Source: a virus | Length of the DNA stretch: 56,833 nt | IMG/VR virus record: IMGVR_UViG_3300013108_000466 | Location: 1 to 56,833 of that record | Strand: one strand, 5' to 3' | Shown: piece by piece, positions 25,507-54,043 of the stretch | Layout of the letters: every line of letters begins with the position of its first letter | Numbering within the stretch: position 1 is the first letter of the stretch | The notes under the pieces: generated by a model | Database searches by the model: none | What the model was told of the DNA's origin: nothing | Seen by the model: only the letters and a program-made list of their open reading frames with translations | Program-made: the position numbers and the translations under genes

Positions 25507-25995
25507 ATGGCAGTATTAGACCCAAACGAAATATTTTTCACAGCTTTTGAGCCAAAGCAAAAGAATAGATTTATTCTTTATGTAGATGGAATCCCATCAT
25601 ACCAAATTAAAGGTATGGGAGCTGTAACATTAAACCAAGGTACAGTAGCTTTAAATCATATTAACGTTCAGAGATTTGTTAAAGGTAAATCTACTTGGAA
25701 CCCAATATCAATGACGTTATTTGATCCAATAACTCCATCAGGTGCACAAGCAGTAATGGAATGGGTTAGATTACACCACGAATCAGTAACAGGTAGAGAT
25801 GGTTATAGTGATTTCTATAAGAAAGATCTTACATTAGATGTATTAGGACCTGTAGGAGATATCGTATCTGAATGGATTATTAAAGGTGCTTTAATCACTT
25901 CAGCTGATTTTGGAGATTTCAATTGGGATACTGAAAATGCTGCTCAAGAAATTAGTTTAGAAGTACAACCAGATTATTGTATTTTAAATTTCTAA
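25507..25995 (+). CDS. gp19: Tail tube protein (gp19-like)
   Basis: 162 residues, the usual T4 gp19 size (163). Features are 'EPKQKNRFILYVDGIPSYQIKG' at the N-terminus, 'WNPISMTLFDPITPSGAQAVMEWVRLHHE' in the middle and 'FGDFNWDTENAAQEISLEVQPDYCIL' at the end, all typical of T4-like tube proteins. It forms the inner tail tube. It is followed by a perfect terminator at 26022. Confidence 0.93.
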   Translation: MAVLDPNEIFFTAFEPKQKNRFILYVDGIPSYQIKGMGAVTLNQGTVALNHINVQRFVKGKSTWNPISMTLFDPITPSGAQAVMEWVRLHHESVTGRDGYSDFYKKDLTLDVLGPVGDIVSEWIIKGALITSADFGDFNWDTENAAQEISLEVQPDYCILNF

Positions 25996-26021: not shown

Positions 26022-26048
26022 AGCTTGGCTTTGCCAAGCTTTTTTTTT
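26022..26048 (+). terminator. Perfect rho-independent terminator after the tail tube gene
   Basis: AGCTTGGC (26022-26029) and GCCAAGCT (26033-26040) pair perfectly around a TTT loop, with an eight- to nine-T tail and an A run upstream. Confidence 0.93.
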
Positions 26049-26098: not shown

Positions 26099-26827
26099 AT
26101 GAGCGATTTTAAATTTCCAACGGAAACTATTGATTTACCCTCAAAAGGTATAGTATACCCTAAAGATCATCCTTTATCTAAGGGTAAAATAGAAATTAAA
26201 TATATGACTGCTAGAGAAGAAGATATTCTTTCTAACCAATCTTATATTCAAAAAGGTATTGTTTTAGATAAACTATTAAATTCATTGATTGTTACTGAAG
26301 GAGTAAAAATTGATGATTTAATTGTTGGAGACAAAAATGCAGTATTTATTGTATCTAGAATTTTAGGTTATGGTAAATATTATGAAGTAAGTATTAATGG
26401 TGTAGAACATAAAATCGATTTAACTGAGTTAAATAATAAAGAATTTGATACCAAAGGTTTAGAACAAGGTCAAAATGAATTTACTTATAAAATAGAATCA
26501 ACAGGTACTGTTCTAACATATAAAATTCTAACAGGAAAAGACGAAAAAGCTATTGATAGAGAATTAGCTGGATTAAAAAAGATTAATAAAGAATCAAATC
26601 CTGCACTTACTACTAGATTAAAACATATGATTACATCAGTAGATGGAAAGGATGAGAAAAAAGATATTAGGGAATTTGTAGATAATTATTTATTAGCTAG
26701 AGATTCTAGGGCATTTCGAGAACACGTAAAAAACACACAACCCGATGTTAATATGAATTATGTTCTTGAGAGTGGAGAGGAGGTAACAGTCCCTATAGGA
26801 CTTAACTTTTTTTGGCCTGACATCTAA
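26099..26827 (+). CDS. Tail assembly chaperone / gp26-like protein, 0-frame product
   Basis: 242 residues. The N-terminus 'LPSKGIVYPKDHPLSKGKIEIKYMTAREEDIL' matches the protein encoded before the tape measure in many marine T4-like phages, often labelled gp26-like baseplate hub. The fold and position are those of a tail assembly chaperone. The gene ends soon after a seven-T run, and the +1 frame across that run continues into the next reading frame, which has no start codon covering its conserved first third. A frameshift fusion of about 339 residues is therefore likely. Confidence 0.75.
   Translation: MSDFKFPTETIDLPSKGIVYPKDHPLSKGKIEIKYMTAREEDILSNQSYIQKGIVLDKLLNSLIVTEGVKIDDLIVGDKNAVFIVSRILGYGKYYEVSINGVEHKIDLTELNNKEFDTKGLEQGQNEFTYKIESTGTVLTYKILTGKDEKAIDRELAGLKKINKESNPALTTRLKHMITSVDGKDEKKDIREFVDNYLLARDSRAFREHVKNTQPDVNMNYVLESGEEVTVPIGLNFFWPDI
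26799..26827 (+). other. Candidate +1/-2 ribosomal frameshift site
   Basis: The 0 frame reads AAC-TTT-TTT-TGG and stops at 26825-26827. The frame used by the downstream ORF is open only from 26799, so any slip must happen in this window. The T7 run at 26807-26813 is the obvious slippery stretch. Shifting there joins 237 codons to 102 codons. A homopolymer sequencing error is the main alternative. Confidence 0.6.
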
Positions 26828-27119
26828 GACCGCACCCCTAGCCAGGAAGAAACTTTTTAAAGATATTCATGATATAGTATTCCATGGAAATGGTGGATTT
26901 GATTATCACACTGTTTACAATATGCCTATTTGGTTAAGGAAATTTACTTTTAAAGAAATCCAAGACCATTTTGATGACCAACAAAGACAACACAAGGAAG
27001 CTATGGAAAGACGTAAAAATCAAGGTAAAAAATCCTTAGTAAGCTCTGATGGTAAAGTAAATGTACCAGCATTTACTGAAGCTAGTAAGCCATATAAAGG
27101 TAAAACAAGTTATAAGTAA
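26828..27119 (+). CDS. Tail assembly chaperone, frameshift extension (gp51-like position)
   Basis: The frame encodes A-R-K-K-L-F-K-D-I-H-D-I-V-F-H-G-N-G-G and then VYNMPIWLRKFTFKEI before a basic, polar tail. The first ATG in this frame is at 26922 (65 residues), but the conserved-looking HDIVFHGNGGFDYHTVY segment lies before it, with no ATG, GTG or TTG start that would include it. This makes it most likely the C-terminal extension of the upstream gene made by frameshifting, as for tail chaperone pairs upstream of tape measure genes in other tailed phages. Start coordinate given is after the 0-frame stop. Confidence 0.65.
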
Positions 27120-27143: not shown

Positions 27144-29486
27144 ATGGCTACCCCAGAGGAATTAAAAAGACAGAAAGAAATTACTAGACTTAAAAAGTTA
27201 GAATTAGAGTATGATAAACAATCATCTCAAATTTCTAGAGCTGATGTAGCTAATAGTGATGATTTTAGCTCCTTATTAAGGGAAAACCTAAAAAGTCTTA
27301 AATTAGTACAAGCTGCAAAATCAGAAATCCTTAGTATTGATAGACGTATAACAAAGCAAGTTAATGATGCTTTTGCTTTTGATATAAAACAATTAGGTAA
27401 TGCTAAAGCTAGTCAAGATTTAGCTAAACAAAGAGTACAATTAGAAAGGGATAGAGTAGTCTTGATGCAAAAGTCAGGAGCTGAACTTACTACAGATAAA
27501 AAACTTCAAGCACAAATTAATGCTACAATAAAACAAAGAGTAAAAACAGCTGAAGAATTATTAAAGGTAAACCAGAAAAATCAAGACATTTCCAAAGAAA
27601 TACAAGGCAATTTAAGTGTTAGATCATTTTCAGGTTTAGCTGGTATAGCAGATAAAGTAGGTTTAGGTGATTTTGTTGGAGAATTAAATGATGCAGCTCA
27701 AGCGGCTAGAGAAGCTGTAGCAGACAATATAGAAGGTAGAGAACTTACGAAGAATTTTGGGTTAGAAAATGCTGATTTAGGTGCTTTAAGTGATGAAGAA
27801 AAAAATATAATCTCAAAAGCCACAGCTGGAGAAGCAGGTGATAAAGGATTTGGAAAAGGCCTTACTAAGGACCTTATGGAAAAAGCTGGTCTAGGTAACA
27901 TGGGACAAGGAGTAGGGGCAGCAGCTAAAATAAAAGGAGCAGGAGGATTAGAAGGGATTGAAAAAGCAACTAAAAAATTAAACCCATTAATAAAGGGACT
28001 TAAAGCGCTAGGTCCAGCACTTAAAAAATTATTAGGTCCATTAGCTATATTAGCAGAAATAATAGCATTAGATAAACAGACTGCTGACATGGCTAAAAAC
28101 ATGAATATGACCTACAAAGAAGCTCAAAAACTAAGAGCTGAAATGCAAAGTATAGCCAATTCTTCTGGTGAAAATTTTGTTACAGGTAAAAAATTAGTAG
28201 AGTCATTTGTAGAATTAAATAAGGAACTAGGAACTTCAGGTACTAAATTAGTTGGTGAACTTTTAACTTCTATGACACAGTTAAGAGAAATGGCTGGGTT
28301 TACCAATGAAGAAATGATGGGGTTAGCTAAATTAGCTTTAACCACAGATGATAACATGGAAGACATTACTGGTGAATTTATGGCTGCTGCTAAGGCAGCT
28401 GGAGTTCAAAATGGAGTAATGGTTAATACTAAAACTTTATCTAAAGATATATCAAATTTATCAGCTGCAACAACATTATCATTAGGAAAAAATCCAAAAT
28501 TATTAGGTGAAGCATTAGCTGTAACTAAAGCTCTAGGCATGGAAATGGAGCAATTAGAAGGTATTGCTAGTGGATTAATGAATTTTGAAGAAAGTATTAA
28601 AAATGAATTAGAAGCAGAATTATTATTAGGTAAAAATATTAATTTAGAAAAAGCAAGACAAGCAGCCCTAAATAATGATTTAGCTACTTTAGCCCAAGAA
28701 ATAGCAGAACAAGCAGGTACATCAGCTGAGTTTGCTGAAATGAATAGAATCCAACAAGAAGCATTAGCTAAATCTGTTGGTATGTCTAGAGAAGAACTAG
28801 CAAATACTTTATTTGTACAAGAACAATTAGCTGGATCAACAGGAGAAGAAGCAGAAGAACAAGAAAGACTATTGAATGCTAGAATAGCAGAAGTAGGTTT
28901 AGCTCAAGCTCAAAAAGAAATGGCTGATCAAGGATTTGAAGGATTAAAAAAACAAGTAGGAATGGCTGATAGATTAACAGCAACTATGGATAAATTAAAT
29001 GAAGTATTTGTTTCATTAATAGAACCTTTAATGCCTATATTAGATGTTTTTGTAATGTTATTTGGTCTTCTTGGAAAAATTGTTGCATTAGTAAAACCAT
29101 TGCTTGATGCCGCAAGTTTTGTAGGTAATTTAATAGGTGATTCAATAGGTTCAGTAGTTGGAGGAGTAGGTAGCATGTTAGAAGGAGGATCATTTTCAGA
29201 AGGAGTTGATTTTTCTGCAACTAAAGCTTCTGGACAAAGGTTACAAGATGATAATTGGATGGGTAAAGGTTTACAAATGGCAGGAGTACCTACAGCATTT
29301 GCAAAAGGTGGAATAGTAACAGGCCCAACTAATGCTATAATTGGTGAAGCAGGTCCTGAAGCAGTAATACCTTTAAATAAAGAAATAAATGTAGATAATT
29401 CTAAAATGGAAGCTATATTATCAAATATTGATAAAAACTTATCAAAACAAAAACCAATGACTCCATTTATGGTATCAGTAGGATAA
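27144..29486 (+). CDS. Tail tape measure protein
   Basis: 780 residues. A long charged coiled-coil N-terminal half (to about 160) is followed by hydrophobic, Gly-rich helices (about 285-320 and 635-690) typical of tape measures. The C-terminal 'FAKGGIVTGPTNAIIGEAGPEAVIPL' is the common phage tape-measure end motif. T4 gp29 is shorter (590). It sets tail length and is likely handled by the chaperone pair encoded directly upstream. Confidence 0.85.
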   Translation: MATPEELKRQKEITRLKKLELEYDKQSSQISRADVANSDDFSSLLRENLKSLKLVQAAKSEILSIDRRITKQVNDAFAFDIKQLGNAKASQDLAKQRVQLERDRVVLMQKSGAELTTDKKLQAQINATIKQRVKTAEELLKVNQKNQDISKEIQGNLSVRSFSGLAGIADKVGLGDFVGELNDAAQAAREAVADNIEGRELTKNFGLENADLGALSDEEKNIISKATAGEAGDKGFGKGLTKDLMEKAGLGNMGQGVGAAAKIKGAGGLEGIEKATKKLNPLIKGLKALGPALKKLLGPLAILAEIIALDKQTADMAKNMNMTYKEAQKLRAEMQSIANSSGENFVTGKKLVESFVELNKELGTSGTKLVGELLTSMTQLREMAGFTNEEMMGLAKLALTTDDNMEDITGEFMAAAKAAGVQNGVMVNTKTLSKDISNLSAATTLSLGKNPKLLGEALAVTKALGMEMEQLEGIASGLMNFEESIKNELEAELLLGKNINLEKARQAALNNDLATLAQEIAEQAGTSAEFAEMNRIQQEALAKSVGMSREELANTLFVQEQLAGSTGEEAEEQERLLNARIAEVGLAQAQKEMADQGFEGLKKQVGMADRLTATMDKLNEVFVSLIEPLMPILDVFVMLFGLLGKIVALVKPLLDAASFVGNLIGDSIGSVVGGVGSMLEGGSFSEGVDFSATKASGQRLQDDNWMGKGLQMAGVPTAFAKGGIVTGPTNAIIGEAGPEAVIPLNKEINVDNSKMEAILSNIDKNLSKQKPMTPFMVSVG

Positions 29487-53378: not shown

Positions 53379-53452
53379 GGGGGATTAGCTCAGCTGGCTA
53401 GAGCACTTGATTTGCATTCAAGAGGTCATCGGTTCGACTCCGATATCCTCCA
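53379..53452 (+). tRNA. tRNA-Ala (anticodon TGC)
   Basis: 74 nt. Acceptor GGGGGAT/ATCCTCC includes the G3-U70 pair that specifies alanine. The anticodon loop is TTTGCAT with stem CTTGA/TCAAG; T-arm ATCGG-TTCGACT-CCGAT; discriminator A. CCA is not fully encoded. All canonical arms are present. Confidence 0.95.
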
Positions 53453-53473
53453 CAAATTTTTAAACTAGAAATT

Positions 53474-53959: not shown

Positions 53960-54032
53960 TGGCTCGTGGTGTAACTGGCAACACGTCTGGTTTTGGTCCA
54001 GAAGAGTCTAGGTTCGATCCCTAGCGAGCCAA
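53960..54032 (+). tRNA. tRNA-Gln (anticodon TTG)
   Basis: 73 nt. Acceptor TGGCTCG/CGAGCCA with T1-A72, D-arm GTGT/ACAC, anticodon loop TTTTGGT on stem TCTGG/CCAGA, T-arm CTAGG-TTCGATC-CCTAG, discriminator A. Canonical cloverleaf. Confidence 0.95.
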
Positions 54033-54043
54033 CGTAAAAAATA

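Follow-up and report, generated by a model that had tools for sequence, protein, structure and literature searches.

How does a single tail gene come to be continued in a second reading frame, and which way would the ribosome have to move to follow it? The stretch of DNA analysed here, the 56,833 bases of an IMG/VR virus record, is referred to throughout as the window. In it, a gene situated between those for the tail tube and tape measure proteins reaches its stop codon shortly after a run of seven T's (T7), and the +1 frame is open across the same place (Table 1). An earlier sequence-only reading proposed a programmed frameshift here, in the +1 or -2 direction, and its coordinates for the 0-frame stop (26827), the T run (26807-26813) and the opening of the +1 frame (26799) are all right. 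The frames overlap as AAC TTT TTT TGG CCT GAC ATC TAA, and the +1 frame opens directly past a TAG at 26796-26798. From comparison with relatives, we consider it likely that this one gene gives rise to two tail assembly chaperones by +1 ribosomal frameshifting, possibly aided by an upstream hairpin. The tape measure gene is recognized by its match to the protein annotated as tape measure in Flavobacterium phage immuto, with 31% of 417 aligned positions identical (E 1e-46). The position of the chaperone gene between tail tube and tape measure is that of the frameshifted chaperones of the lambda G/GT type.

Table 1. Features of the chaperone locus, by position in the window
Feature	Position	Strand	Basis
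Tail tube protein gene, before the chaperone gene	25507..25995	+	PHROG 4542, E 4e-23
0-frame gene, short tail assembly chaperone of the T4 gp26/gp51 family, 242 aa	26099..26827	+	PHROG 150, fold match
Upstream hairpin AGTCC-CTATA-GGACT, putative stimulator, 4 nt before the T run	26788..26802	+	Synonymous covariation
+1-frame extension including stop, predicted C-terminal domain of the long form	26799..27119	+	Open frame, dN/dS, tblastn matches
Shift site TTT TTT TGG (T7 run 26807-26813); predicted +1 slip on UUU_U, leading into the +1-frame codon GGC	26807..26815	+	Conserved in relatives
GGCCTGA, nearly invariant, after the T run	26814..26820	+	Aligned loci
0-frame stop TAA, 3 codons past TGG	26825..26827	+	Direct reading
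Tape measure protein gene, after the chaperone gene	27144..29486	+	Match to annotated immuto tape measure

The window gene belongs to the T4 gp26/gp51 family of tail assembly chaperones. Its 0-frame protein matches PHROG 150, the family that holds both T4 gp26 and gp51, at E 3.7e-6, and its relatives do so at E 8e-9 to 2e-25. The PF12322 profile matches the relatives L084, L085, L086 and L088 and gave no match to the window protein. A structural model of the 0-frame protein (mean pLDDT 90) has T4-like baseplate hub assembly proteins among its top fold matches, with E values down to 1e-17. A Foldseek search of the PDB with this model returned no match at E <= 0.001; over residues 1-93 the two best-scoring solved structures are YqbN, at Z 5.7, and the HK97 tail assembly chaperone, at Z 5.0, followed by one at 3.7, all of them middling scores below Z 8. 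YqbN we take to be a phage-type tail chaperone. Within T4 itself gp26 and gp51 are paralogues (hhalign 98.7%), gp51 carrying about 45 extra C-terminal residues.

Conservation of the shift site was followed in about 260 loci, gathered from viral contigs with the 0-frame protein and distant relatives as queries; the shift-site region was located in 253 of these, phage RM378 being present twice (L086 and L271). The comparison with homologues that the sequence-only reading had suggested returns T7GG, TTTTTTTGG, in 196 of the 253 loci and variants compatible with a +1 shift in the rest, chiefly TTTCTTTGG (35 loci, the immuto group) and TTCTTTTGG (14), with TTTCTATGG (4), CTTTTTTGG (3) and TTCCTTTGG (1) as rarer forms. 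Within the window's clade T7GG is without exception (78 of 78 loci). Across the 253 loci the 0-frame stop lies 2-9 codons past TGG, and the A-site codon in the aligned loci is UGG or, rarely, UAC. The nearly invariant heptamer behind the T run encodes W-P-D/E when read in the 0 frame and G-L-T when read in the +1 frame, and it puts a TGA into the -1 frame. Three independent contigs (L003-L005), about 98% identical in protein, all carry the same T7, which excludes a homopolymer error, and the site recurs in hundreds of relatives; sequencing error as the source of the frame change is ruled out. The same relatives answer the worry, raised with the original proposal, that reads with six or eight T's might restore one continuous gene.

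Two loci scored at first as lacking the +1 extension (L209 and L238) proved on inspection to have it, and the others so scored are contig ends. True exceptions are few: L087 and L270 resemble -1 sites, and L260 and L265 have the extension in another frame, beginning at its own ATG just past the 0-frame stop. The slip site is lost in L260 and altered to TTCCTTTGG in L265, a natural swap of frameshift for separate gene. The codon that precedes T7 ends in T in 1 of 109 representatives against 54.8 expected from the codon usage of the same genes. With a T there, the classical -1 heptamer U UUU UUU would form and RNA polymerase would be offered a longer T run; this avoidance fits a site selected for +1 and against -1 movement.

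Judged from its substitution pattern, the +1-frame extension is a translated protein under purifying selection. Over the 23 codons from LF to the internal Met, the median dN/dS among 42 window-clade representatives is 0.17, as compared with 1.4 and 2.2 for the same stretch of the same 42 sequences in the other two frames; pooled synonymous differences over the stretch amount to 0.72 per site. Searches by tblastn with the +1 segment find matches in immuto, Mel-JY01 and LR756508. Together with the presence of the site in 253 loci, a recurrence well beyond chance, these dN/dS values uphold, at the level of sequence comparison, the proposed programmed frameshift in a tail chaperone upstream of the tape measure. 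The accompanying statement that no start codon covers the segment is also correct, since direct reading of the window's +1 frame finds no ATG, GTG or TTG before 26922, the ATG of MPIWLRKF, which lies downstream of the conserved block KLFKDIHDIVFHGNGG. Similarly, in 30 of 122 representatives no ATG, GTG or TTG follows the last +1-frame stop ahead of this block. A conserved shift site joined to an extension in a second frame is also what characterizes the lambda G/GT-type chaperones.

The extension possibly corresponds to the C-terminal extension of T4 gp51. An hhalign comparison with the gp51 C-terminus covers it in register, in an alignment that is weak (E 4e-4, probability 35%), and with the fusion of locus L084 the match to PHROG 150 lengthens from profile position 233 to 273. 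PF20546 (DUF6760) was considered as a family for the extension and rejected, its E of 0.14 falling far below the cut-off. Modelled from a single sequence, the 339-aa fusion reaches a pLDDT of 36, too low for any use. Small genes annotated as hypothetical in immuto (L002 4839-4949), SP-15 (L282 2821-2940) and RM378 (L086 3674-3850), with immuto26A_233, SP15_046 and Rm378p030 as names of such genes behind a gp26-like gene, probably encode the C-terminal end of the long chaperone fusion.

In the mechanism that we propose, both products would be made from one start codon, like lambda G and GT. The majority of ribosomes would remain in the 0 frame and stop at 26825, releasing the short form of 242 aa. 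In a minority, Phe-tRNA would occupy UUU in the P site with UGG in the A site and slip by +1 with full re-pairing (UUU_U), after which GGC would be entered in the +1 frame and a 101-residue extension added to give a long form of 339 aa. By analogy with lambda, the short form would coat the tape measure protein and the rarer long form would tie the tape measure to the tail tube protein. Lying 4 nt upstream, the hairpin would refold behind the decoding site, favouring forward movement and blocking -1 slippage, and would serve instead of a Shine-Dalgarno stimulator. We infer from sequence that the shift is ribosomal and +1, and likewise the ratio of the two products and the role of the hairpin.

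The T7 run alone is compatible with a +1 shift, a -2 shift or the loss of one U from the transcript, and it is the variant sites that separate these possibilities. TTT CTT TGG (35 loci) allows +1 slippage on CUU_U, the prfB codon, or on UUU_C; TTC TTT TGG (14 loci) allows it on UUU_U, and TTT CTA TGG (4 loci) on UUU_C. None of the three permits P-site re-pairing at -2 at the expected codon, and their homopolymers are no longer than 4. The variants thus misfit both a -2 shift and RNA-polymerase slippage as a common mechanism, leaving a +1 ribosomal frameshift as the best supported. A -2 ribosomal shift on T7, which would reach the same frame with one extra Phe, is accordingly rated very improbable. 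Such shifts occur in other systems, and within T7 the UUU codon re-pairs perfectly two bases back; against this stand the homologous sites TTTCTTTGG and TTCTTTTGG of the same family, where no P-site re-pairing exists two bases back, and both the upstream hairpin and the avoided T before the run, which oppose backward movement. Of the two directions named in the sequence-only reading, +1 is therefore the better supported and -2 fails at these two variants; its 339-residue fusion is likewise correct for +1, a -2 shift giving 340. Slippage of RNA polymerase on T7, in which a nascent hairpin would help to produce six-U transcripts and the long form would arise by ordinary translation, we also consider improbable. 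In its favour, a hairpin precedes a T run, the loss of one base gives exactly the +1 frame, a terminator scan flags the upstream hairpin too, and a Roseiflexus insertion sequence makes its transposase in this manner (PMC5009743). A single rC:dA mismatch, however, stops realignment of RNA polymerase and is inviable (PMC5009743), and one-base realignment at TTTCTTTGG, TTCTTTTGG and TTTCTATGG needs such a mismatch. An uninterrupted homopolymer able to realign, as in Roseiflexus, is therefore not shared by all members, being absent from these 53 loci, and slippage is implausible at variants whose T runs of 3-4 are broken by C. Moreover, T8, on which polymerase would slip better, is the very run that is avoided, and the window hairpin stands 4 nt from its T run, whereas that of Roseiflexus is adjacent.

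The extension might instead be a separate protein, made without fusion by internal initiation (for example at ATG 26922) or by coupled re-initiation. The residue at the 26922 position is M in 71 of 122 representatives, L260 and L265 do use a separate ATG, and the Pseudomonas phage Cygsa01 has a TAATG coupling; of the 97 relatives readable at the same position, however, 26 have L, F or N. The conserved part of the extension lies upstream of 26922; it evolves under purifying selection in the +1 frame, and the window offers no start codon for it. Initiation would also leave the invariant T7GG and its variants unexplained. We therefore give this explanation very little credence and retain the +1 ribosomal frameshift. 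A stimulator downstream of the shift was considered and rejected, since folding signals in the +1-frame region are weak and inconsistent (z about +0.7 to -4.4), with some folding excess at +1 codons 8-24 in the immuto group and the Mel-JY01 clade.

Upstream of the shift the picture is different in the window's clade. The near-constant peptide VPIGL is encoded in five hairpin registers (GTGCCCATTGGGC, GTCCCTATAGGAC, GGCCATTCCAATTGGCC, ATCCCAATAGGGAT and AGGTCCCTATTGGCCT), each with matching third codon positions, and stem pairs are compensated, as in GGCCA/TGGCC versus GACCA/TGGTC. When synonymous codons were shuffled among sequences within each alignment column (300 shuffles), the mean folding energy at the site was -6.17 kcal/mol as against -3.84 kcal/mol in the shuffled sets, with 0 of 300 shuffles as low. 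Kinship among the sequences inflates the z values of such shuffles, which are not probabilities (some non-site windows also reach z -6), and the other folding windows of the same gene are the better guide. By this measure the site is the most extreme of 114 folding windows along the gene, with a difference of -2.30 kcal/mol; the other 113 average -0.08 +/- 0.20 kcal/mol, the lowest being -1.05. In the Mel-JY01 clade, which has a different peptide there, the site again stands out most, among 130 folding windows (-1.04 versus -0.10 +/- 0.20 elsewhere). In the immuto group (peptide IPIGV) the folding window at the site is not exceptional, and its T7 members give z -0.1, a weak or absent signal from which it follows that not every site requires the hairpin. 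In 101 of 131 representatives the 27 nt before the site hold a hairpin of <= -3.5 kcal/mol, as do 96 of 655 windows taken elsewhere; the gap between stem and site is 0-5 nt in 94 of those 101. Stimulation by a Shine-Dalgarno helix of the prfB type was considered and rejected, anti-Shine-Dalgarno pairing in the window's clade showing no excess over synonymous shuffles (z 0.3). Weaker synonymous folding signals are present elsewhere in the chaperone gene, at codons -20 to -13 and about -222 counted from the site, in the window-clade and immuto-group alignments.

The frameshift could be real and the hairpin signal nonetheless a by-product of codon linkage around the conserved VPIGL, without a role of its own. 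The sequences do share ancestry, the immuto group lacks an exceptional signal despite its similar peptide, and a weaker signal occurs at codons -20 to -13. Linkage alone does not readily account for the near-zero values of the 113 other folding windows, for five pairing registers with matching third positions beneath one peptide, or for the likewise extreme position of the site in the Mel-JY01 clade with its other peptide, and we regard a by-product as unlikely. The hairpin as a stimulator may be the most interesting part of the proposal and is also its least certain.

No Shine-Dalgarno signal was found at 52 window gene starts, which show a strong preference for A near -3, -5 and -11 to -14, as expected for a Bacteroidota host. 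Such a host is probable on two grounds, the nearest cultured phage and the missing Shine-Dalgarno signals. Bacteroidota ribosomes sequester their anti-Shine-Dalgarno sequence (PMC9976891), for which a hairpin could stand in. Elsewhere in the window, tRNA genes for Ala (TGC) and Gln (TTG) lie at 53379-53453 and 53960-54033. A strong intrinsic terminator, AGCTTGGC-TTT-GCCAAGCT followed by a T run, occupies 26022-26040, between the tail tube and chaperone genes. Terminator-like structure is present there in 30 of 44 window-clade relatives as opposed to 0 of 44 control stretches, and in SP-15 a terminator is annotated at the corresponding position. The terminator at 26022-26040 may set the level of tube protein above that of the chaperone.

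Reviews name T4 as an exception to the chaperone frameshift of the lambda type (PMC5009743), and the sequence-only reading held that such shifts are not standard for T4-like phages. This is accurate for T4, which uses genes 26 and 51, and Aes508 likewise has two genes; it does not extend to the superfamily, many members of which carry shift sites at the junction. A -1 junction, T TTT TTC or T TTT TTT, is found in the cyanophages Sf-FS3, S-CAM7, MED4-213 and S-SM1 and in pf16, Mendera, AsFcp_1, D483, a Variovorax phage, Atu_ph07, XacN1 and IC12. SP-15, LIS04 and GXN1 look +1, and Rhodothermus phage RM378 has TTTTTTTGG and is +1. In our collection, -1 sites at the gp26 junction are those of L283, L284, L285, L286, L290-L294, L296, L298 and L299, and the small gene annotated as 'baseplate hub assembly catalyst' in -1 phages is the -1-frame extension. 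S-SCSM1 (L289, around 1410) has T TTT TTC, yet its extension is in the +1 frame in the deposited sequence, either a sequencing error or a real switch.

Parts of this are already known, namely the chaperone family, its duplication and the -1 shifts. T4-like chaperone genes were identified by Vladimirov, Gautam and Davidson (Virology 2022), as citing papers report; short and long copies are described there as separate genes in the account given by PMC10885494, and in that of PMC12846349 the same study is credited with poly-T -1 signals in these genes. The +1 direction with T7GG and a covarying hairpin ending 0-5 nt upstream looks new, no earlier description having been found in the accessible literature. 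An open-access literature search for natural phage cases of +1 shifting with an upstream hairpin returned nothing relevant, which is weak evidence of novelty. T4 relatives would then use at least three solutions, namely a pair of paralogues, a -1 shift or a +1 shift. More tentatively, and with slightly less than even confidence, we suggest that a large group of T4-superfamily phages, probably infecting Bacteroidota, shifts +1 under stimulation by a natural hairpin. This hairpin would refold on the exit side of the mRNA channel, behind the ribosome, and would replace the Shine-Dalgarno helix that host ribosomes largely sequester; with -1 shifting in other hosts, direction would have been reversed within one orthologous gene. 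The family would constitute a natural, many-times-varied test of an upstream hairpin driving a forward shift, an effect demonstrated in the accessible literature with designed or transplanted elements only. The frameshift itself is open to direct testing in a cultured relative, Flavobacterium phage immuto 2-6A, whose slip site reads AGC TTT CTT TGG.

The closest precedents for such a hairpin are synthetic. Huang et al. report that, in an E. coli 70S system, a hairpin adjacent to the E site promotes +1 movement at CUUUGA, with an effect about 60% of that of an internal Shine-Dalgarno sequence and with RF2 absent; synthetic upstream hairpins also attenuate -1 shifting (PMC6321510), and widening the spacing from 2 to 5 nt halves the attenuation of shifting by a hairpin (PMC3639245). 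These systems (PMC6321510, PMC3639245) resemble the phage sites in placing a hairpin just 5' of the slip site, where close spacing matters. They differ in that their hairpins are designed or coronavirus-derived and studied in test systems, whereas those of the phages are natural, spread over many loci and smaller in the stem. The 70S precedent, moreover, shifted only without RF2 and with a stop codon in the A site, where the phage site has UGG.

Among natural +1 sites, that of prfB (RF2) shares with the window the direction, an upstream element near the P site and, at immuto-type sites, a possible CUU_U slip. It differs in its UGA stop codon in the A site and its Shine-Dalgarno-like stimulator; the phage sites have a hairpin, and an A-site stop is absent from them, UGG or rarely UAC standing there instead. 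In Bacteroidia prfB, as in F. johnsoniae, the +1 site retains an AGGAGG that resembles a Shine-Dalgarno sequence (PMC8710568), so that the replacement of such pairing by a hairpin is not compelled and is suggestive only. The tail chaperone of the haloarchaeal myovirus HSTV-2 is very likely also expressed by a +1 shift (PMC5009743); its host is unrelated, and the accessible portion of that article describes no upstream hairpin. Lambda gpG/gpGT (Xu et al. 2004; PMC5009743) typifies the -1 shift on a heptamer, in contrast to the putative +1 shift of the window gene on UUU_U (CUU_U in relatives) behind an upstream hairpin. The -1 poly-T sites of the T4 superfamily are nearer still, with a U run at the same place in the same gene; in the window type, T almost never precedes the run and the frame is +1. 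T4 gp26 and gp51, finally, belong to the same family as the window gene (PHROG 150), but in T4 they are separate paralogues, transcribed divergently, and no shift is involved, whereas in the window one gene and a shift would give both.
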